DNA from: Candidatus Bilophila faecipullorum | Lineage (GTDB): Bacteria; Desulfobacterota; Desulfovibrionia; Desulfovibrionales; Desulfovibrionaceae | Length of the DNA: 64,000 nt | Reading direction: 5' to 3' | Assembly: GCA_944326695.1 (NCBI GenBank) | Contig: CALVEZ010000002.1 | Span: 62,001-126,000, forward strand | Shown here: in pieces, positions 19,065 through 34,024 of the stretch | Position numbering within the stretch: the stretch's first letter is position 1 | How the letters are laid out: each line of letters starts with the position of its first letter | Notes under the pieces: model-generated | Seen by the model: only the letters and a program-made list of their open reading frames with translations | Told to the model about the DNA's origin: nothing | The model's database searches: none | Made by a program: the position numbers and the translations under genes

Positions 19065-20288
19065 CTAGGAGGGGCCTCCGGGCCTGCGGCGGTCCGCGTC
19101 GTCATAGGAACGATCCTCGCGCCATGCCTCCCACTCGTGGCGGGCTCCCTTGTAGACGGCCCCGGTCCCGTGCCACGAGGCCAGCAGCCCTTCCTTGAGC
19201 CAGCGGGCCGCGCCGCGCACGGGCTCGGCGAAGGCCGCCGCGTGATCGCGCAGCGCGCCGAGGTCCACGTCCGGGATGGCCTCAAGCACGCGGTTGGCCG
19301 CGCCCTTGTTCAGGCCGTAGACGTGGCCCTGCGAAACGGCGAAGATATTGGGATTGACCAGTTCCACAAAACGTTTCTGGGCCGCGTAGTTGCCCGAGGG
19401 GAACTCGCAGCGCAGCAGCCGGAAACGGCTGTCCGCGAAAAGCCGGGCCACCGCCTCGGCGTCGCTGTCCGTGACCACCGAGGCCGCGTATTCGAGAATG
19501 CCCGCCTCGCCCTTGAAGAGCCGATAGAAACGGTCGAGGTAGGCGGCGGCGCGCTCCTCCCCGAGGGCCTCGCGCAGGGCCTCGTCCGCGTCGATGACCT
19601 TGTAGCCGTAGCGGCCGTTGTTCTTATAGATGTATTCGTGGTAGAAAAGCGTCTCGAAAAGCGACCAGTCCGGCGTGGGGCTGCGGTACAGCTCATCCAC
19701 GATCTCCAGCGGATCGCCGTGTTCGGCGCACAAATCCTTGAGGATGGCCGTGTCGTAGAACCAGCAGAAATGTTCCAGAAACCATTTGTGGTTGCGGGTC
19801 TTCAGTAGGTAGTTGTTGTTCTTGACCACTGTCAGGAACAGGAAGCCGGCCCGCTGCCTGCGGTTGATGTCGCTGTAGGCGAGGAAGGGAGCGGCGAAAT
19901 ACTCGTCGAACAGCGCGTTCATGCGCGTAGGCCGGGCCCACATGCTCTCGGAGTCGAGGAGCAGGCTCTGTTCGGGATCGATGTAGAGCTGGGCATACCA
20001 CTTCTTGAGCGACTGGAAGGAAAACTTCCCGTACTTGTCGAGCAGCACGCCCGGCGTGATGCGCACGGAAAAGTGCTCAAGGATGTCCTCGAAGCAGAGC
20101 ACGTTGAGGTTGAGATCGTTGTAGTCGCGGGCGATCTTTTCAAAAGGCCGCACGTCCTCCCGGTTGACGATGAAATAGACCGGGAAATCCCGCTCCTCCA
20201 CGTACATGCGGAAGCTCTGGAGGTATTTGGGGATATACTGGAAATGCCCCCGGTAGGTGGGGGTGATGATGCAGCGTTCCACGCGCAT
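19065..20288 (-). CDS. Glycosyltransferase-like protein of a surface-glycan cassette
   Basis: A 407-residue cytoplasmic protein. The opening IITPTYRGHFQYIPKYLQSF is typical of GT-A-like sugar transferases. LLLDSESMW near residue 112 sits where a DxD-like metal motif would be expected, and the central part is rich in aromatic residues (WFLEHFCWFYD). It resembles the DUF6492-type putative glycosyltransferases, but I cannot fix donor or acceptor. AAGGAG is 5 nt before ATG. It is the last gene of a three-gene operon, starting 19 bp after the nucleotidyltransferase/HAD gene. Confidence 0.6.
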   Translation of the reverse strand: MRVERCIITPTYRGHFQYIPKYLQSFRMYVEERDFPVYFIVNREDVRPFEKIARDYNDLNLNVLCFEDILEHFSVRITPGVLLDKYGKFSFQSLKKWYAQLYIDPEQSLLLDSESMWARPTRMNALFDEYFAAPFLAYSDINRRQRAGFLFLTVVKNNNYLLKTRNHKWFLEHFCWFYDTAILKDLCAEHGDPLEIVDELYRSPTPDWSLFETLFYHEYIYKNNGRYGYKVIDADEALREALGEERAAAYLDRFYRLFKGEAGILEYAASVVTDSDAEAVARLFADSRFRLLRCEFPSGNYAAQKRFVELVNPNIFAVSQGHVYGLNKGAANRVLEAIPDVDLGALRDHAAAFAEPVRGAARWLKEGLLASWHGTGAVYKGARHEWEAWREDRSYDDADRRRPGGPS

Positions 20289-20307
20289 GAAGACTCCTTG
20301 CAGGCGC

Positions 20308-21363
20308 TCAGTCGGCCAGATATTCCTTGAGGGAAGCGTTGCGGGGCAGCGAAATGGCCAGACACGAGGGATAGGGGTTGGTAGGCGCGAAATCGTTGAT
20401 GAGCACGCGCGCCGCATGGTTGAGCCCCATGACCACCGCATGCGGGCGCAGGCCGCAGTCGCGCAACATGGCCTCAAGCGGCTCGCGGAAAGCTTCGTCC
20501 CGGCAGGTGGTCACGACGATCTGCGCGCCCGCGTCCTGCAGGGCGCGCAGGGCGGCCACGTTGTCCTCAAGCATCTCGGCATTGTTGTTCCAGTTGATTT
20601 TCCCGTAGCGGCCCGAGTTCTTCATGAGCACGCCGTCCACGTCCACAAAATAGGTGCGGCTGCGCTTTTGCAGCGCCTTCCACTCGGCAAGCGTCCCCCA
20701 ATCCTCGTAGGCCCGGGCCATGAGCGGTACGAAGGTTTCCCCCCGTTCGCGGATGAGCCATGCGATGACGTCGCTCATGTAGATTTCCCGGTTCTCGGAC
20801 TCCAGCGCGTGATAGGCCACCTCGAACATGGCTGTCGAGGCGAAGAGGTAGAGCCCGACGGCGATGACGTGGGAAACCACCCGCTTTTCGATGATGGTTT
20901 CGATTCGCCCTTCCGTATCGAGCAGGAGGAAGCTCTTGGCCGCCACGTTGGGCACGGAGGGATCGCGGCTGATGTCGTAGCCCGCTACGGCGTTGAGCGG
21001 CCCGGCGGGGATGTCCGCCTCAATGAAGTTGTCGGAATCCTTGACGGCGAAATCGCCGTTGACGCGCATCCGCCGCAGGGTGAGCTGGACGGTTTCGGCC
21101 ACGCTGCCGGTGAAGTCGTCAAGGACGCAGACCTCCACCCCGTGGCGTCCCGCAAAAACCTGTCCGAGGATGCGCTCGGCGTCGTGGCGTTCGGCGTGGG
21201 GCCGCACGATGGTCACGATGACGCGCTCGAAACGCCCGGCGGGCAGGCCGTCAAGCGCCTTGTCGATCATGAGGCGGCCATCCGGGTGGGTCAGCAGCCA
21301 TTTGGGTTTCATGCCCGGATAACGGCTCGACTTCCCCCCGCAGGGCACGATCAGCGTACTCAT
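20308..21363 (-). CDS. Sugar/choline-type nucleotidyltransferase fused to a HAD-like domain
   Basis: A 351-residue two-domain protein. Residues 1-230 form a nucleotidyltransferase (PCGGKSSRYPGMKPKWLL is the GGxSxR...PK signature, with VKDSDNFI in the place of the metal-binding Asp). This kind of domain activates a phospho-compound with CTP or another NTP. Residues 240-351 form a HAD-type phosphatase domain (TYFVDVDGVLMKN with the catalytic DxD, TTCRDE, LINDFAP). Its start overlaps the stop of the upstream kinase gene by 4 bp, so the two are translationally coupled. The pairing of kinase and nucleotidyltransferase parallels LicA/LicC of phosphocholine pathways, but that is inference. Confidence 0.75.
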   Translation of the reverse strand: MSTLIVPCGGKSSRYPGMKPKWLLTHPDGRLMIDKALDGLPAGRFERVIVTIVRPHAERHDAERILGQVFAGRHGVEVCVLDDFTGSVAETVQLTLRRMRVNGDFAVKDSDNFIEADIPAGPLNAVAGYDISRDPSVPNVAAKSFLLLDTEGRIETIIEKRVVSHVIAVGLYLFASTAMFEVAYHALESENREIYMSDVIAWLIRERGETFVPLMARAYEDWGTLAEWKALQKRSRTYFVDVDGVLMKNSGRYGKINWNNNAEMLEDNVAALRALQDAGAQIVVTTCRDEAFREPLEAMLRDCGLRPHAVVMGLNHAARVLINDFAPTNPYPSCLAISLPRNASLKEYLAD

Positions 21364-22226
21364 AGATACTCCTTTATCACATCAATGCGCTTCATGACGT
21401 CGCCCATCGTGCGGTCCAGATACCGCAGCGTGGGGGTGTCATGGGTATAGGGAAGAATACGCAAAGTATTGAGAAGAATGATATGATAAATCATATAGAG
21501 CTTTGAGACGCCTTCTTCGAGGTCTACCACCTTCTTGACGAGCACCTCCTTGGCGATGCGCAGCTTGAGTTCCCGGTGGATGTCTTTCGGCAGGCTGCGG
21601 TAGGACCAGCGGAATTCGAGGTCCTGAAAGAGCTTGGCCACGTCGATCATCCAAGAATTGTAGAATGAATCAAGAAAATCAATAAGGTAGATACGCCTGT
21701 TCTCGGTGACGAGGATGTTCTCGAGCGTCAGATCGCCGCAACAGTAGCTGTGCGGCACGGTGGAGAAATCGAAATTCCGCAGCTTGCGCACGGCCTCAAG
21801 CACTGTCGCCTCGCGCCGGGGCAGGTTCCTGGTTACCGCGCCGATCTTGCGCGAGAAAAGCGCGGCGGCACGCGCCCCGGGCTTCTTGCGGCGCAGGGGG
21901 AGGCTCTCAAAGAGCATATCCAGAAAATGGAGGATGTCCTCAATGTCCAGATGCTCGATGGACTCGGCCATCTTCCGGGCAGGGATGTATTCCATGTCGA
22001 AATAGAAAAAGCCGCCGTCGTACCCCGCGCCGAGCACGGCGGGCGTCCGCACGGCGTCCATATTGAAATGCTTCTGTTTGAGAAGCTGGCGCTTGAGCCG
22101 CTCGTTGTAGGCAAAGCTGGTGGACTGTTTCCTGATGAAGGGGTCGCCCCCCGCTTGGCAGAGCATGACCCGGCACCCTGAATGCCCTGAAAGATCACGG
22201 ATAGTATTGACGGGCGATACGCACAT
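21360..22226 (-). CDS. Phosphotransferase (choline/aminoglycoside kinase-like)
   Basis: A 288-residue small-molecule kinase of the APH/choline kinase fold. The catalytic loop is HSYCCGDLTLENILV (Brenner-type GDxxxxN) near residue 185, and the metal-binding Asp follows in IYLIDFLDSF. The N-lobe is short. The start at 22226 follows a perfect AAGGAGG. A longer frame adds 12 residues without a site. It is the first gene of the operon 22226-19065 and probably phosphorylates the compound that the next gene activates for attachment to a surface glycan or teichoic-like polymer. Confidence 0.72.
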   Translation of the reverse strand: MCVSPVNTIRDLSGHSGCRVMLCQAGGDPFIRKQSTSFAYNERLKRQLLKQKHFNMDAVRTPAVLGAGYDGGFFYFDMEYIPARKMAESIEHLDIEDILHFLDMLFESLPLRRKKPGARAAALFSRKIGAVTRNLPRREATVLEAVRKLRNFDFSTVPHSYCCGDLTLENILVTENRRIYLIDFLDSFYNSWMIDVAKLFQDLEFRWSYRSLPKDIHRELKLRIAKEVLVKKVVDLEEGVSKLYMIYHIILLNTLRILPYTHDTPTLRYLDRTMGDVMKRIDVIKEYL

Positions 22227-22325
22227 CTTGGCCTCCTTATGAAAGGGGGTGAAAGGCCCCACTTAGATAAAGAGTAAAGATGACGGTAATTTATATGTCA
22301 AATATTTTCCCGTGAAAACGTGCGG

Positions 22326-22526: not shown

Positions 22527-23927
22527 TTATAAAGAAAAGGGGATGCCGATAAAAAGCTTGAGATCGCGTTCGGACTGAAAGACGTTGCGGTAGACGGTCC
22601 AGCTCGGCTGATCCGTGCCGTTGCGGTATTCGGTGTAGTGAAGCTTGACAAAGGCGCCCTTCAAGGGGCCCTCTGGCCGCACGTAGTCGAGATCAAAGGT
22701 AAAAGCCCACTCCTTGAGGCGTTCGGCTGCGCCGTAGCCCTGCCCGTCGCAACCGAAGGCCGCGCCCGCGCCCGCCGCGAAGCCCGGCACGGGCAAGAGG
22801 TCGTCAAGCTCGCGCCGCACGCCCGCGAAGACGGCCTTCTCGTTATGGGCGTTCCAGTCCGAGCGCGCGTCCCACCATACGTCGAGGGCCCCGGCAGAGC
22901 TGCCGTTCTTGTCCGTCAGACGATAGGCGAACTGCCCTTGACTCTCCGGGCCGGACAAAGGCGCGCGGACATAGGTTCCCTCCAGCCGGAAGAGCCACGG
23001 CTTGCGCTCATACCTGCCGAAAAGATAGTGCAGCGAGGCCAGCCCGTTGAAGTTGTCATTCGGGCCTCCGGAATCGTCGCTGTCATCCATAAGATACAGG
23101 TGGTAGCCGAAAGATAGGACGTCACTCTTCCGCTCCACGCGCCGGGCGGCCTTGAAGTGGGCGTTTCGGAGGTGGCCTTTCGATTCCCCGTAGCCCGCCT
23201 CCAGCGTGAGGCCGCCCCCAAAGGCGTAACGGGCCCCGGCGCTCCACAGCCACGGCACGCGCGTCTCGCCGTCGTTCTTGCGGAAGCGGTTCATATGCAG
23301 GAACCACGGGGACTTGTACTCGTCCGCCCACGCCGCGGCCACGGACAGCCCCCCCACATCCGCCCCGACGTTGAAGCCTCGGTAGGTGCCCGGCATGATC
23401 GACCAGTTCACCCCGAGCACGCCCGGTCCCGTGGGCTGGAAATAGCCGGCCTTGGCCCATGCCGGGCCCGCCTTGGCCTTGAGCGCGGCCTTGTAGACGG
23501 AAACGCCGTCGTCCGTGGCGCGGCGGCTCCAGTCGGGATGCCACGGATCGCCCCACGGCTCGAAGCCCATCTCGTGATCCACCGCGCCCTTGTTGAAAAC
23601 GTCGTGGGAACCGAAAACCCCGAAGTCGAAACCGAGGGCGTCCCCCGCGAAGCCGGAGGAAAAATCCGCATTGGCCTGAAGCGAGGCGTGGTTGAGGTTG
23701 ACCTCGTAGCGGCCCTTGTCCTTGTCGTAGCGCCGCCGGTCGCGGCGGTAGAAATAGACCCCGCCCGTTACCTGCGCTTCGTCGAAAAAGCGCGTGCCCG
23801 TGCGGAAGGTCTCCCGCGAGTCCAGCCCCGCCGTTTCCGGCGCAAGGTCCTCGCCCGCCCGCGCCGGGAGTGCGCAGGCCAGAAGAAGCAGCGCGAAGGG
23901 CCAAAGGCGACGCGGGGCCACGGCCAT
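22527..23927 (-). CDS. Outer-membrane porin of the OprD family
   Basis: A 466-residue beta-barrel porin. A signal peptide (about 1-23, ending PARA) precedes alternating amphipathic strands with many aromatic residues. The OprD family start FFDEAQVTGGVYFYRRDRRR and the terminal strand ending in a hydrophobic pattern closing with SL are visible. Family members let amino acids, peptides, sugars or chitooligosaccharides cross the outer membrane, and the substrate here is unknown. The start at 23927 gives a clean signal peptide although its ribosome site is weak. The open frame upstream is Arg/Ala-rich noise. It lies 215 bp after the EIIC-EAL gene on the same strand and may be co-transcribed. Confidence 0.82.
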   Translation of the reverse strand: MAVAPRRLWPFALLLLACALPARAGEDLAPETAGLDSRETFRTGTRFFDEAQVTGGVYFYRRDRRRYDKDKGRYEVNLNHASLQANADFSSGFAGDALGFDFGVFGSHDVFNKGAVDHEMGFEPWGDPWHPDWSRRATDDGVSVYKAALKAKAGPAWAKAGYFQPTGPGVLGVNWSIMPGTYRGFNVGADVGGLSVAAAWADEYKSPWFLHMNRFRKNDGETRVPWLWSAGARYAFGGGLTLEAGYGESKGHLRNAHFKAARRVERKSDVLSFGYHLYLMDDSDDSGGPNDNFNGLASLHYLFGRYERKPWLFRLEGTYVRAPLSGPESQGQFAYRLTDKNGSSAGALDVWWDARSDWNAHNEKAVFAGVRRELDDLLPVPGFAAGAGAAFGCDGQGYGAAERLKEWAFTFDLDYVRPEGPLKGAFVKLHYTEYRNGTDQPSWTVYRNVFQSERDLKLFIGIPFSL

Positions 23928-24142
23928 CAGGCCCCGGGCTCGGAAGAAGTGGCGGAAAAAGGCGCAAGGAAGGGCAAGGCCACGGAAGGGCAGGAGGCAA
24001 AGGCCGTCGGACAGGTCACGGAACACCGCACCAAGGCGGCACAAACCCCGGGCAAGGCCGCCGGAAGGACGGCCCCCGCAGGGCGGGCGGTTCCCCGCAG
24101 AAAGGCTTCCGGTGCGCCACGAGGCCACAAGAAAAGACCTCC

Positions 24143-26404
24143 TCAGGCCTCGCCCCGGCGTGTCCCGTCCGGGCCGTCCGATCCTTCCGTCCCGGCGGGA
24201 GCGGTGTGCGGGCCGACGGGCTGAGGCCCGGCCTCGGCGGAGGCGACGCGGCTGTTGGTTTCAAGGATGAAACGCAGGCAATCCCCGGCAAGGAGGGGCC
24301 TGCTGTAACGGTAGCCCTGAAAAACGTCGCACCCGAGGCGGCGCAGCACGGCGATCTGTGCGTCATCCTCTACAAACTCGGCCACGCTGGTCATACGCCG
24401 CGCCCGGCACAGGCGGGTGATGGAAGCGACGATGTCCTGGCAAATGGGGTTCGTCACCACTTCCCGGCTGATGGCCCCGTCGATTTTCACCGCGCTGACC
24501 GGGAACTGCTTGAGGTACTTGAGGGAACTGTGCCCCATGCCGAAATCGTCGATGGCGAGGAGCAGCCCGGATTCGTAGAGGTGGGTCAGGATGCGGCTTT
24601 CCGGGGTATCGGCGCCGAGCGCGGCGGATTCCGTCACTTCAAGGCTGACGAGGGAAGGCGGCAGGCCGTGCGCGTGCAGGCTTTCCAGCAGCTTTTGCGG
24701 GAAACCGCGCCGCAGTTGGAGCGCGGAAACGTTGACGGACATGGTCAGGTCTTCAATTCCCCGGTCGAGCCAGTCCCGGCGCACGGCGCAGGCCGTGTCG
24801 AAGACCCACAGGCCGATGGCCCCGATGAGCCCGGAATCCTCCGCCAGCGCGATGGTGATCGGCGCGGGAATCGAACCGTAGGAAACGTGATTCCAGCGGA
24901 GAAGCGCCTCCACACCCTTCACCCGGCCCGTGGCCGAGGCAATCTGCGGCTGGAACTCCAGATAGAGCCCCCGACCATGCTTATAGTCGTATTCCAGATC
25001 GACGAGCAGGCTGCGCGCCAGCGACCCCACGTCGCCATCGTGATCAAGGATATGTCGGGACGACCCCGCGGGAGCGCAGGAAAGCTCAAGGAGACGCCGG
25101 AACGCGCTCCTGATCTGCTTCACCCTGATCTTGTTGGCCAGCAGCACGAAAGGCACGTAGACGAACATCCCTATGCCGATATTAACAATCTGGAGGAGCG
25201 TGCCGCGCAGGGACCCCGTGGACAGGTAGCCGTTGAGCAGGATGGGCGTCGTCCATTGCGTTTCCACGCTGGTGCCGGGGACGAGCCCGGTCACTACGGA
25301 CACGTAGCTGATGGCGGACAACAGCAGAGGCGTGACCAGAAAGGGGATAAGCATGAGCGGGTTGAGCACGATGGGCAGGCCGAAGAGCAGCACTTCGTTG
25401 ATGTTGAAGACGCCCGGCACCAGCGCGATGAGCCCGATGCGGCGGCTGGCCTGCGTCTTGCCCCAGAAGGCGAGCGCCAGCGCAAGGCTGATGCCCGTCC
25501 CGGCCCCGCCCATGAACACGAAAGTATCCATGAACGTCTTGGTCATGACGTAGGGCAAAGGCATCCCTGCTGCGGCTGCGGCTTCGTTGGCGAGTATGGC
25601 CGCGCCGTAGATGTCGTGCGTGATCGGATCGAGGACGTTGGAGCCGTGCACGCCCGCAAACCACAGCCCGTGCAGCGAAAGGATGTACATCATCCCCCGC
25701 CCGAGCCCTTCCCCGATGGAGTCGAAGGGCCAGCGCAAGAGCCGGTATACGGCCTCGTGCAGCGACATCCCGGTTTCGGAAAGCATGAGCGTCCCACACG
25801 CGGCAAAGACCACGACGGTCAGCATCCCCGGCACAAGCGCGTTGAAGGCCTGCGGGATGGCGATGTCCGACGCGCCGCCGGGCAGGTGCAGGTGCAGTTT
25901 CCGAAAGGAAAAGAGAAAGAGGAAAAGCCGCGTGGAAAGGATGCCCACGAGGATGGCCACGAAAAGCCCGGCCACCCCGAGCCAGCGCAGGGGCAACGCG
26001 CCGTCTTCCGGCTGGAGCAGACAGAAAAACGAGGCGAAGGCCACCAGCCCCGCGATGACCGGATTGGCCCGCAGGACGGCTTGCGCGCCGTTGAACTGGA
26101 GCGTCAGGTGGTGAGCAAGGGAAAAGACCATGATGAGCGACATCACGGAAAAGGTGCCGTCTTTCAGGATATTGCCCAAAAGAGGCCAGTCCGGGCCGAA
26201 ATGGGCCGCCATGAACGCCTGATAGCTCGGCAGGGGGAAACTGTTCAGAAGCTCGGCCAGCGACCCGAGGAACATGAGCGGCAAGGTGACCACAAGGGCC
26301 GAACGGATCGCCGCCAGCGTCGGGCTGCTGGAAACGTGGTCCGCCCACGGCAGGAGGACTTCTTCAATCTTTCTGGAAATGTCGCACAGCTTCCGTATCA
26401 TCAT
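24143..26404 (-). CDS. Fusion of a cellobiose/lactose-type PTS EIIC domain to an EAL c-di-GMP phosphodiesterase
   Basis: A 753-residue inner-membrane protein. Residues 1-440 are a PTS EIIC of the lactose/chitobiose/cellobiose family, with about ten helices, the WFAGVHGSNVLDP loop, GGAGTGISLALAL and the substrate-site segment PGVFNINEVLLFGLPIVLNP. A linker follows. Residues about 480-735 are an EAL domain with LEFQPQI, GVEALLRW, the metal ligand Asn in MSVNVSALQ, LEVTESAAL, IDDFGMGHSSLKYLKQF, the lysine in VKIDG and AEFVED (usual AEGVE). Most catalytic residues are present. No EIIA, EIIB, EI or HPr gene is nearby, so the EIIC part probably senses a sugar rather than phosphorylating it. GAAGGG precedes the ATG. 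A short acidic tail ends the protein. Confidence 0.88.
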   Translation of the reverse strand: MMIRKLCDISRKIEEVLLPWADHVSSSPTLAAIRSALVVTLPLMFLGSLAELLNSFPLPSYQAFMAAHFGPDWPLLGNILKDGTFSVMSLIMVFSLAHHLTLQFNGAQAVLRANPVIAGLVAFASFFCLLQPEDGALPLRWLGVAGLFVAILVGILSTRLFLFLFSFRKLHLHLPGGASDIAIPQAFNALVPGMLTVVVFAACGTLMLSETGMSLHEAVYRLLRWPFDSIGEGLGRGMMYILSLHGLWFAGVHGSNVLDPITHDIYGAAILANEAAAAAGMPLPYVMTKTFMDTFVFMGGAGTGISLALALAFWGKTQASRRIGLIALVPGVFNINEVLLFGLPIVLNPLMLIPFLVTPLLLSAISYVSVVTGLVPGTSVETQWTTPILLNGYLSTGSLRGTLLQIVNIGIGMFVYVPFVLLANKIRVKQIRSAFRRLLELSCAPAGSSRHILDHDGDVGSLARSLLVDLEYDYKHGRGLYLEFQPQIASATGRVKGVEALLRWNHVSYGSIPAPITIALAEDSGLIGAIGLWVFDTACAVRRDWLDRGIEDLTMSVNVSALQLRRGFPQKLLESLHAHGLPPSLVSLEVTESAALGADTPESRILTHLYESGLLLAIDDFGMGHSSLKYLKQFPVSAVKIDGAISREVVTNPICQDIVASITRLCRARRMTSVAEFVEDDAQIAVLRRLGCDVFQGYRYSRPLLAGDCLRFILETNSRVASAEAGPQPVGPHTAPAGTEGSDGPDGTRRGEA

Positions 26405-29806: not shown

Positions 29807-32800
29807 ATGAGCGCTGACGACAACGGCCTGCGGCAGGCGGCTCCCCTCGGGGCCAGCTACGTCATGGGAACGTTCAACGACAACTTTTTCAAGCAGGCGG
29901 CCCTGCTTCTCGCGGTGGGCGTGGGCAACGCCGCTTTTCAGGCTCGCGCCACGTTCGTGTTTGCGCTTCCCTTCGTGCTCTTCTCGGCGTGGAGCGGGTG
30001 GCTGGCGGACCGTTTCCCCAAGAAGCGCCTCGTCATCGCGGCCAAGGCGCTGGAACTGGCCGCCATGCTCGCAGGCGCGTGGGGTATGGTCATGCTCGAC
30101 TGGACATGGCTGCTGGCCATGATCTTCTGTATGGGCCTCAGTTCCACGCTGTTCAGCCCCGCGCTCAACGGCTCCATCCCCGAACTCTTCCCCGTGGGGG
30201 CCGTGCCGCGCGTCAACGCCCTGTTCAAGCTCGGCACCACGGCCTCGATCCTGTGCGGCGTCTGCCTCGCCGGGCTATCCCTTGATCAGACGTGGCTCGA
30301 TACGGTCCAGCCCTTTGGCCGCTGGCTCGTCGCGGCCGTGGCCGTCCTCGTGGCCGCCGCCGGGCTCGTGGCCGCCCTCTTCATCGAAGCGCGGCCCGGC
30401 GCCGGGAGCGTCCGGCCCTTCCCGTGGTCTGCCCTTGTGGACTCCTTCCGGCATCTGCGCGAGGCCCGCCGGGACCGGCCCCTTTACCTCACCATCTGGG
30501 CCGAAGCCTTCTTCTATGCCCTGTCCACCCTGCTGCTCCTCGAAATCAACGCCCTCGGGCGCGGCGAACTCGGCCTGTCCTACACCGTCACCAGCCTCCT
30601 GCCCGTGGCCCTCATGGTCGGCATCTGTGCGGGCTCGCTCCTCGCGGCCCGGGGCACGCCCGAAAGCTGGCGGGCCCTGCTCGCGCCCTCCCTTTTCGGC
30701 ATCGGGCTCCTGCTCTGCCTCGTGCCCCTCGCGGCGAATGCCCCGCAAGCGTGGCGCTTCCCTCTGCTCTTCCTCATCTATGCCGCCGCCGGGACGTGCG
30801 GAGGGCTCTATCTCATCCCCGTCACCAGCTTCGTGCAGGTGCGGCCCGCGCCCACGGAAAAGGGGCGCATCCTCGCCCTCGACAACTGCCTCTCCTTTTG
30901 CGGCATCCTGCTGGCCGGGCAAGCCTATCTGCCGCTGTCGGCCCTGCGTGCGTCGAGCGGGCATTTCGTCCTCGGCCTCCTCTGCTTTGGGGCGGGGCTG
31001 ATTTTCCTTATGGGCATCCGGCGGATGGGCGGCCTCGCGGCAGCTCCCCTTGCCTCCTCTCCCTTGGCCTGCGCCGCCGACAAGGATGACAGGGCCGCTT
31101 CCTCCCCCGTCGCCGCTTCCGCCTTATACGCTTCCGCCAGCCCTTCGGCCCTTTCTCCGGCGTGCGCCGGGGCGCAGGGCGCGGCATCCTTGGCCGCCTC
31201 TCCGCAAGCCCCGGTCCCTGCCGCCTTCGCTTCCCTGCCCTCCCCGGCTGGCCCCGCTTCCCCCGCCCTTGCCCCGGCCTCTTCGGGCTTGGGCGGCGGC
31301 CCCACTTCGGACAGGGCGGACCGAGGGCGTTTCCGGCCTTCCCTCGCGCTGCGCCTCCTCCTGCCCGTGGCCCGCGCCCTGCTCGGCCTGCGCTACCGCG
31401 TGCGCGTGGACGGGCTCGATGCGGTACGCGCCCGCGACGACGGACGCCCCATCCTCTTTCTGCCCAACCATCCCGCGCTCATCGATCCGGCGCTCGTCTA
31501 TACGGCTCTTGCCGACTATACCCCGCGCCCGCTGGGGGACGTCCATCAGATGGACCGGCCAGTGATTCGTTCCGTGGCCTCACTGCTCGGGACCATCCCC
31601 ATCCCGGACCTGCGCCGGGACGGGCGGCGTGCGGCAAAGGGCGTGCACGAAGCCCTCGGGCGCGTGGCCGAAGCCCTGCGCGCCGGGGACAATATCCTCC
31701 TCTATCCGGCTGGCGGCCTTTCCCGTGACGGAAAGGAACGGCTCGGCGGCAACCGGGGCGCGCACGACCTGCGCGAGGCCGTGCCCGGGGCCCGCGTGGT
31801 CCTCGTCAGGACGGCGGGACTGTGGGGAACGTCCTTCAGTTGGGCGCGCGGCACGGCCCCGGACAGCCTGCGCGGGCTGGCGAGGGGGGCGGCCCTGCTG
31901 CTCCTGAACGGGCTTTTCTTCATGCCGCGCCGCGAAGTCCGCATGAGCCTCCTCGAACCCGAACTGCCCGATCCCGCCGAGGGCGTGCGCGCCTTCAACG
32001 CGGCGCTGGAAGCTTTCTACAACGCCGGGGATGAGCCCGCTCTTGCGGTGCCGGAACACTTCCTGCGCGGGGCCGCCCCTCGGCCCCTGCCCACACGGGA
32101 GGCGGAAAATGCGACGGACGGTGAGGAGCGCCCGGCGGCGGACATGGACCCCGCCCTGCGTGAGGCCGTGCTCTCCCTGCTGCGCGACGAAAGCGGCGCG
32201 GAGGACATCCCTGACGGCGCGGCCCTGTCCGCCGATCTGGGCATCGACAGCCTTGCGCTGGTCAACGTGGCCGCAGGGCTGGAAGAGCTTTCCGGGCGGC
32301 CCGTGGAAGAACTGGAAGACCTGCGTACCGTGGCCGACTGCTTCCTTGCGGCATCGGGGCGGCTGGGGAGCGCGCGGGATGCCGCCGAAGCGCCCGGCGC
32401 GTGGTTTGCCTCGGGCCCGGCCCTGCCGCTCTCGGTCCCGGCGGGGTCTGACCTCGTGGAAGCGGCCTTCCGGCAGGCCGCTTCCGCCCCCTCGCGGCTC
32501 ATGCTCGCGGACGGCGGCACGGCGCTGACCGCCCGCGAGGTGATCACCCGCGCACTGGCCCTGTCCGCCTTCGTGCGGGCAAGGACCCGGGACGAGGCCC
32601 GGGTGGGCATCATGCTGCCCGCCTCGTCCGCCGCCGCCCTGACGTGGCTGGCCGTGCTCATCGCCGGGAAGGTTCCGGTCATGTGCAACTGGACGGCGGG
32701 CCCCGCCAACTTCGCCCACGGCCTCAAGGCCACGGGCGCGCGACATGTCCTGACCTCGTCCCGCCTCCTTGAGCGGCTGGCCGGGCAGGGCTTCCCGGTG

Positions 32801-34024
32801 GACAATCACGCCGACGCCTGGATCGCGCTTGAGGACGCGCCCGCCTCCCTGAGCCTTCTTGACAAGATCGGCGCATTCCTGCGCGCACGGCTGCTGAGCT
32901 TGCCCCTCGTAGGGGCGGCGGCCATGCCGCGGGGCGTGCCGGGGACGGCGGCCATCCTCTTCACGTCCGGATCGGAGTCGCTCCCCAAGGCGGTGCCGCT
33001 CTCGCACGCCAATATGCTGGCCAACTGCCGCGACATCGCCGCCGTGCTGCGTCTCACCACGCACGACCGGATGCTCGCCATGCTGCCGCCCTTCCACTCG
33101 CTGGGGCTGACCGGGAACATCGCCCTGCCGCTGCTCTTCGGTCTGCCCGCCGTCTATCACGCCAACCCCACGGAGGGCGCGCGCCTCGCCGCCCTCGCCC
33201 GCCGCTGGAGGCCCACCGTGACGGTGGCCCCGCCCACCTTCCTCGACGGCATGATCCGCAAGGCCCGGCCCGGCGATTTGACTTCCCTGCGCCTCGGCTT
33301 CGTGGGTGCGGAAAAGTGCCCGGACGCCCTGCACGCGGCCTTTGCCGCCATCTCGGGCGGCGTCCTCTGCGAGGGCTACGGCGTCACCGAATGCGCCCCC
33401 GCCGTAAGTGTGAACCGGCCCGAGGACGTCCGGCCCGGCACCATCGGGCTCCCTCTGCCCTCGGTCCGCACCGCCGTGGTTACGCCCGAAACGCCGCCGC
33501 GCCGCGTCGCCCCCGAGGAAACCGGAATGCTGCTCGTATCCGGCCCCAACGTCTTCGGCGGCTATCTCGGCGTCGAGCCGGACAAGCAGCCCTTCGTGGC
33601 CTTCGAGGGCCGCACGTGGTACCGGACGGGCGATCTGGTGAGCGAGGACGAGGACGGACGGCTGACCTTCCGGGGACGGCTGAAGAGGTTTGTGAAGATC
33701 GGCGGAGAAATGATCTCGCTTCCGCAGATTGAGGACGCCCTGCTCGCGGCCTTCGGGGAACGGGCCGAAGGCGAAGGCCCGGCGCTGGCCGTGGAAAGCG
33801 GGGACGATGCGGCCATCGTGCTCTTCGCCGCCCTTCCCGTCACCCGCGAGGAGGCCAACGCCGCCCTGCGCCGCGCCGGGCTTTCCGGCCTCTCCTCCGT
33901 GGCCCGCGTGCTCCGGCTCCCCGCCCTCCCCGTCCTCGGCACGGGCAAGACCGATTACCGCGCCCTTCGCACGCTCTGCACCCAAACCGACCAGGGCGTG
34001 TCAACGCTCAACGGGGGAAAATGA
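29807..34024 (+). CDS. aas: LplT-PlsC-ACP-acyl-ACP synthetase fusion (Aas-type lysophospholipid repair)
   Basis: A 1405-residue four-part protein. Residues 1-415 are a major-facilitator lysophospholipid flippase (LplT-like, FNDNFFKQAALLLAVG near the start, DRFPKKR loop). Residues 416-505 are an Ala/Ser/Pro linker. Residues about 510-770 are a PlsC acyltransferase (FLPNHPALIDP, LYPAGGLSRDG). Residues about 785-855 are an acyl carrier domain with LGIDSLALVN, whose serine would carry phosphopantetheine. Residues about 885-1405 are an AMP-forming acyl-ACP synthetase (FTSGSESLPKAVPLSHANM, EGYGVTECAP, YRTGD, KRFVKIGGE, GTGKTDYRAL). It would flip lysophospholipids inward and reacylate them with fatty acids activated in place. 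E. coli does this with separate LplT and Aas and no built-in ACP. AGGAG supports the start; the longer upstream frame does not. Confidence 0.92.
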   Translation: MSADDNGLRQAAPLGASYVMGTFNDNFFKQAALLLAVGVGNAAFQARATFVFALPFVLFSAWSGWLADRFPKKRLVIAAKALELAAMLAGAWGMVMLDWTWLLAMIFCMGLSSTLFSPALNGSIPELFPVGAVPRVNALFKLGTTASILCGVCLAGLSLDQTWLDTVQPFGRWLVAAVAVLVAAAGLVAALFIEARPGAGSVRPFPWSALVDSFRHLREARRDRPLYLTIWAEAFFYALSTLLLLEINALGRGELGLSYTVTSLLPVALMVGICAGSLLAARGTPESWRALLAPSLFGIGLLLCLVPLAANAPQAWRFPLLFLIYAAAGTCGGLYLIPVTSFVQVRPAPTEKGRILALDNCLSFCGILLAGQAYLPLSALRASSGHFVLGLLCFGAGLIFLMGIRRMGGLAAAPLASSPLACAADKDDRAASSPVAASALYASASPSALSPACAGAQGAASLAASPQAPVPAAFASLPSPAGPASPALAPASSGLGGGPTSDRADRGRFRPSLALRLLLPVARALLGLRYRVRVDGLDAVRARDDGRPILFLPNHPALIDPALVYTALADYTPRPLGDVHQMDRPVIRSVASLLGTIPIPDLRRDGRRAAKGVHEALGRVAEALRAGDNILLYPAGGLSRDGKERLGGNRGAHDLREAVPGARVVLVRTAGLWGTSFSWARGTAPDSLRGLARGAALLLLNGLFFMPRREVRMSLLEPELPDPAEGVRAFNAALEAFYNAGDEPALAVPEHFLRGAAPRPLPTREAENATDGEERPAADMDPALREAVLSLLRDESGAEDIPDGAALSADLGIDSLALVNVAAGLEELSGRPVEELEDLRTVADCFLAASGRLGSARDAAEAPGAWFASGPALPLSVPAGSDLVEAAFRQAASAPSRLMLADGGTALTAREVITRALALSAFVRARTRDEARVGIMLPASSAAALTWLAVLIAGKVPVMCNWTAGPANFAHGLKATGARHVLTSSRLLERLAGQGFPVDNHADAWIALEDAPASLSLLDKIGAFLRARLLSLPLVGAAAMPRGVPGTAAILFTSGSESLPKAVPLSHANMLANCRDIAAVLRLTTHDRMLAMLPPFHSLGLTGNIALPLLFGLPAVYHANPTEGARLAALARRWRPTVTVAPPTFLDGMIRKARPGDLTSLRLGFVGAEKCPDALHAAFAAISGGVLCEGYGVTECAPAVSVNRPEDVRPGTIGLPLPSVRTAVVTPETPPRRVAPEETGMLLVSGPNVFGGYLGVEPDKQPFVAFEGRTWYRTGDLVSEDEDGRLTFRGRLKRFVKIGGEMISLPQIEDALLAAFGERAEGEGPALAVESGDDAAIVLFAALPVTREEANAALRRAGLSGLSSVARVLRLPALPVLGTGKTDYRALRTLCTQTDQGVSTLNGGK

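Follow-up and report, generated by a model that had tools for sequence, protein, structure and literature searches.

An EIIC permease domain fused to an EAL phosphodiesterase and encoded beside a chitoporin homologue: a candidate chito-oligosaccharide receptor in c-di-GMP signalling

The EIIC-EAL gene and its neighbours

The window analyzed here is the whole 64,000-nucleotide stretch of contig CALVEZ010000002.1 from Candidatus Bilophila faecipullorum, and the locus under study comprises two neighbouring genes on its minus strand (Table 1). The first encodes a single protein in which a PTS permease domain (EIIC) is joined to an EAL phosphodiesterase domain, confirming the open reading frame that a sequence-only reading of this DNA had proposed. 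The frame starts with an ATG at 26404, preceded by the purine-rich, Shine-Dalgarno-like AAGGGA, and its stop lies at 24143. A Pfam scan of the whole protein detected two domains only, PTS_EIIC (residues 34-359, E = 7.8e-31) and EAL (residues 477-703, E = 1.2e-54), and no GGDEF domain. The EIIC part scored above the cut-off of TIGR00410 (lactose/cellobiose IIC; 284 versus 236 bits), its nearest solved relative is bcChbC (PDB 3QNQ), aligned over residues 11-430 (E = 1e-72), and by homology it has a ten-TM fold. The sequence-only reading had called this EIIC cellobiose-type; we infer from the evidence described below that the likely ligand is better narrowed to chito-oligosaccharide.

Table 1. 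Features of the EIIC-EAL locus (window coordinates)
Feature	Position	Strand	Evidence
EIIC-EAL fusion gene, 753 aa	24143..26404	(-)	ORF, PF02378, PF00563, AlphaFold2 model
EIIC domain, residues about 11-431, lactose/cellobiose/chitobiose class	25112..26374	(-)	TIGR00410, 3QNQ, Foldseek
Linker of the fusion protein	24977..25112	(-)	AlphaFold2 secondary structure; conserved G460, L466, D469, L470
EAL phosphodiesterase domain, residues 477-703	24296..24976	(-)	PF00563, residue table, VIA match
Chitoporin (ChiP-like, OprD family) gene, directly downstream of the fusion	22527..23927	(-)	NF047822, 7VU2, chiP identity

The OprD porin previously noticed beside the fusion proved to be, more specifically, a homologue of chitoporin (ChiP). 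Its best PDB match is the chitoporin 7VU2 (E = 1e-89, residues 47-465, covering the whole barrel), chitoporins were the only PDB relatives in the match list, and it is 39% identical to an annotated enterobacterial chiP. The score against the NF047822 equivalog was 375.6 bits, below the cut-off of 750, and because this is half of the cut-off value, the substrate may differ. The start with the signal peptide lies at about 23927, and there is an alternative in-frame GTG at 24128, which would add 67 residues before the signal peptide and is preceded by a GAGGAGG overlapping the stop codon of the fusion. This arrangement (24128-24145) is probably due to chance, with translational coupling as a possible explanation. 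A terminator-like hairpin in the gap between the two genes (24151-24134) was discarded; it is weak, and such matches often arise by chance in the window.

After the chitoporin gene, three close or overlapping genes follow on the minus strand (19065-22262). One product is APH/choline-kinase-like, another combines a MobA-like nucleotidyltransferase with a HAD-like phosphatase, and the third, of 470 aa, has no Pfam match. The three genes possibly form a surface-decoration pathway, and no homologues of them were found beside other EIIC-EAL genes. The plus strand encodes, at 29807-34024, a 1405-aa protein in which a long Ala/Pro/Ser-rich linker connects an MFS transporter to a PlsC-type acyltransferase, and which also contains an AMP-binding domain.

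Predicted structure of the fusion protein

The AlphaFold2 model, for which 35 fusion sequences were used as input, contained both folds, with a mean pLDDT of 87.2 and a pTM of 0.80. When the model was used in a Foldseek search, 3QNQ ranked first and EAL phosphodiesterases came next, and by VIA-align the EAL part matched the EAL domain of BifA with a Z of 33.4 and MucR with a Z of 31.9. The last TM helix is predicted to run on as a long helix (399-442), and a second helix (457-475) enters the EAL domain. Because the rmsd between the model and 3QNQ is large (about 10), the prediction suggests a different relative position of the two EIIC subdomains than in 3QNQ, a difference that is not to be over-read.

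Conservation of the sugar site and the catalytic residues

The alignment used to compare residues contained 45 full-length fusions, one fusion truncated at its start and six transporters. W245, H250, E334 and W382 of bcChbC, among which we take H250 and E334 to be the key sugar-site residues on the basis of the 2011 structure, correspond to W248, H253, E337 and W384 of the fusion. The PGVFNINE motif pointed out earlier is present in the EIIC domain and contains E337. Equivalents of these four residues were invariant in all the 45 full-length fusions and in the truncated one, which come from several phyla, and they were unchanged down to 29-33% identity. This invariance argues against the view that EIIC does no more than dimerise the protein and anchor it in the membrane, without binding a ligand, a view that would also leave the pairing with ChiP, described below, unexplained. 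Although membrane anchors of unknown sensory role are common among phosphodiesterases, we therefore consider this explanation barely credible for EIIC-EAL.

The EAL domain had been described as largely intact, and it is intact; the qualifier was an understatement, since every motif residue checked is present (E499, N558, E589, E592, D619, D620, K640, E676, E679 and Q696). Accordingly, lowering of c-di-GMP by the fusion would fit the sequence of its EAL domain. Among the aligned fusions, the motif lysine (K640 here) is replaced by Q only in L127 and L129, two EIIC-EAL copies of genus g19 that may be inactive; one of the two genomes also encodes an unlinked ChiP. The G of DDFG is replaced by S or N in several relatives, mostly from Bacillota.

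PTS components in the home genome and in other fusion genomes

The home genome is a 3.63 Mb draft assembly that is 98.6% complete, and the absences reported here rest on profile searches of it. The EIIC-EAL fusion is the only PTS_EIIC protein in the whole genome. The searches gave no match to PTS_IIB (PF02302) or to lactose-type PTS_IIA (PF02255), and the N-terminal domain of EI (PF05524) and HPr (PF00381) were absent as well. The sequence-only reading had noted that no EIIA, EIIB, EI or HPr is encoded nearby and had proposed a check for lactose-type IIB and IIA in the genome; the observation thus holds genome-wide. A search with PF02896 showed an apparent EI in all nine genomes examined, and the home-genome candidates were rejected, since the two PEP-utilizers_C matches are PPDK-type proteins with PPDK_N and the EI-specific domain is absent. 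With the same profiles, both EI and HPr were found in 17 of the 18 other fusion genomes tested, indicating that the searches for them work; the sole exception, G077, is only 54% complete. A functional PTS Enzyme II has a cognate IIB and IIA as well as EI and HPr, and none of these was found, leaving the home-genome EIIC with its sugar site kept and no visible phosphoryl donor. These absences, together with the invariant sugar site, support the earlier proposal of a receptor rather than a PTS transporter.

Since most of the other fusion genomes have EI and HPr, a link to the PTS is possible in them. In addition, a review of c-di-GMP proteins lists PTS_EIIC as one of their rare domains and terms it a phosphoreceiver (PMC8846402). 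Both points would agree with a sensor in which the bound sugar is phosphorylated by an EIIB from a different class and the state of the PTS controls the EAL domain. However, such a sensor is highly improbable here, because the home genome has no detectable EI, HPr or lactose-type IIA and IIB, and because, in a survey of the same GTDB family (247 genomes), PTS_IIB occurred in 16, mostly in a fructose-type-like form, and only four of the 16 contain the fusion. In 15 of the 16, PTS_IIB was found as a tandem pair within one frame of 578-705 aa, which looks like a fructose-type IIBC.

Distribution of the fusion

In the same survey, TIGR00410 matched in 37 of the 247 genomes, and all the 37 matches lay inside open frames of 707-894 aa, so that, judged by frame length and this profile, none of the family genomes has a stand-alone EIIC of this class. 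The EAL domain lay within the available sequence for 25 of the 37 and was deduced from frame length for the other 12. Fusions with the same domain order were found in Desulfobacterota, Pseudomonadota, Bacillota, Spirochaetota and Synergistota (the named genomes being from Desulfovibrio, Desulfobulbus, Azoarcus, Duganella, Thiorhodococcus, Rhizobiales, Sporomusa, Lachnospiraceae, Oscillospiraceae, Treponema and Synergistales), and their occurrence in five phyla indicates that the fusion is not due to chance. The survey of domain architecture called for by the sequence-only reading thus establishes EIIC-EAL as a conserved family. In a quick maximum-likelihood tree with thin sampling of transporters, the fusions were placed apart from the six transporter EIICs (SH-aLRT 99), a topology that would be compatible with a single old fusion event.

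Association of the fusion with chitoporin genes

ChiP-like genes were found in 10 of the 247 family genomes, and eight of the 10 also carry the fusion (Fisher p = 4.5e-6 for all genomes and 9e-5 for near-complete ones, kinship being ignored in both). ChiP is located directly downstream of the fusion in five of the family genomes (G000, G077, G160, G192 and G235) and also in an Azoarcus MAG, where roughly 40-60 bases separate the two genes. The link to the porin is therefore stronger than had been guessed, as several genera, and one genome of another phylum, have the chitoporin beside the fusion. Within the family, seven fusions associated with ChiP group in a single clade (SH-aLRT 100), and the eighth ChiP genome, G189, has a fusion placed in a different clade. 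The pairwise identities of ChiP correlated with those of the fusion (Spearman 0.60, with non-independent pairs). ChiP was not detected for 29 of the 37 family fusions, so other ligands are likely for these.

In ChiP genomes with the fusion, the searches detected neither GH20 hexosaminidase nor GH18 chitinase, so the pore and the EIIC are unlikely to serve chitin degradation. This result and the pairing with ChiP together favour sensing of chito-oligosaccharides over feeding on them. An EIIC-EAL fusion beside a chitoporin, in a genome without a detectable PTS, suggests that a transporter was recycled as a receptor to sense chitin fragments, not to eat them.

The absence of these enzymes also bears on two explanations in which sugar moves through the EIIC. 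EIICs of the lactose/cellobiose/chitobiose class are elevator transporters (PMC7329351, PMC11393339) and are dimeric (PMC7329351), and the sugar-site and gate motifs are all conserved in the fusion. It could thus act as a transceptor, in which EIIC facilitates the inward movement of unphosphorylated chitobiose and the EAL domain responds to the act of transport; the shift of the model relative to 3QNQ (rmsd 10) would fit a different transport state. Nevertheless, a genome with no GH20 or GH18 found to use the sugar and no PTS to trap it speaks against this explanation, and we regard it as unlikely.

The direction of control might also be reversed, so that the EAL domain would sense c-di-GMP and thereby gate a sugar channel. 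Some EAL domains do work as effectors that bind c-di-GMP, FimX and LapD being examples, but the catalytic residues are kept in the fusion, unlike in effectors of that type, and transport would lead nowhere without a PTS or known hydrolases. The chance that control runs in this direction appears to be quite small.

Proposed mechanism

We consider it rather probable that the fusion works as a transmembrane receptor for chito-oligosaccharides, with c-di-GMP carrying its signal. As to ligand identity, conformational coupling, phosphodiesterase activity and direction of the response, we infer the following scheme. Chito-oligosaccharides, probably (GlcNAc)2 or similar, would cross the outer membrane via the ChiP-type porin and bind to the EIIC, which has lost its PTS partner, at a site that faces the periplasm. 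The bound sugar would shift the elevator-type EIIC dimer between states and thereby set the position of the transport domain, and the last TM helix, continuing into the cytoplasm, could pass this shift to the paired EAL domains. EAL domains commonly act as dimers, and an altered EAL dimer would change c-di-GMP hydrolysis, the simplest case being that hydrolysis is switched on.

A broader reading, for which we see somewhat less than an even chance, is that EIIC-EAL proteins are widespread PTS-independent sugar receptors in which an elevator fold has become a sensor, and that in this organism ChiP and the receptor make up a self-contained pair of genes for detecting chitin fragments from other organisms, without a PTS, GH18 or GH20 to use them.

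Comparison with known systems

The EIIC domain belongs to the same family as bcChbC, the N,N'-diacetylchitobiose EIIC of Bacillus cereus, and has the same sugar-site residues, whereas bcChbC is a stand-alone PTS permease with EIIB and EIIA partners and the EIIC studied here bears an EAL domain and has no PTS relay. The EAL domain shares its fold and motif residues with BifA, MucR, DosP and PdeA; in those proteins, PAS, haem, MHYT or other domains drive the EAL domain, while in the fusion a PTS permease would take the sensory role. An outer-membrane chitoporin is likewise paired with a chitobiose-class EIIC in the enterobacterial ChiP (7VU2) and Chb system, although the pair described here looks dedicated to signalling, with no IIA/IIB, GH18 or GH20 found. 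Among the matches listed, plasmid-borne EIICs were, where annotated, ordinary PTS permeases and serve for comparison only.

Control of an EAL phosphodiesterase by sugar status is known from EIIA-Glc and PdeS of Vibrio cholerae, where it is indirect, depending on the PTS and acting via EIIA phosphorylation and a separate protein (PMC6877527). The control proposed here would be direct, within one polypeptide and without the PTS. The combination of EIIC and EAL is already known at the database level, and the fusion has the same Pfam domain as the PTS_EIIC c-di-GMP proteins of the above review; in contrast to the label of phosphoreceiver (PMC8846402), the absence of a detectable phosphoryl donor here points to ligand sensing. 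The literature searched, which covered few subscription papers, contained no experimental study of an EIIC-EAL protein. What is new is the sugar site kept in a genome without a detectable PTS, the strict fusion state in the family and the pairing with a chitoporin.

The known external ligands of c-di-GMP enzymes are few, and a phosphodiesterase with a structurally understood sugar permease as its sensor makes ligand, coupling and direction directly testable. If the proposal is true, it would correct the view of EIIC as a phosphoreceiver in c-di-GMP proteins, show the evolution of a transporter into a receptor in a genome without a detectable PTS, and tie chitin sensing to c-di-GMP in Desulfovibrionaceae-like bacteria.

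Other gene neighbourhoods

An all-against-all comparison of the open reading frames around 31 fusions revealed no widely shared operon partner beyond ChiP, the recurrent genes being signalling genes only. Fusions without ChiP sit among histidine kinases, GGDEF proteins and MCPs. In Duganella radicis (L053 2683-10581), two tandem EIIC-EAL genes flank a Reg_prop/Y_Y_Y/GGDEF protein. In two relatives, the EIIC-EAL/ChiP pair is followed by a gene for a methyl-accepting chemotaxis protein (L152 12510-14258 and L153 11819-13567), which contains a CZB domain according to the Pfam scan of the L152 copy, the L153 copy being its homologue, hinting at chemotaxis toward the same ligand as that of the pair.
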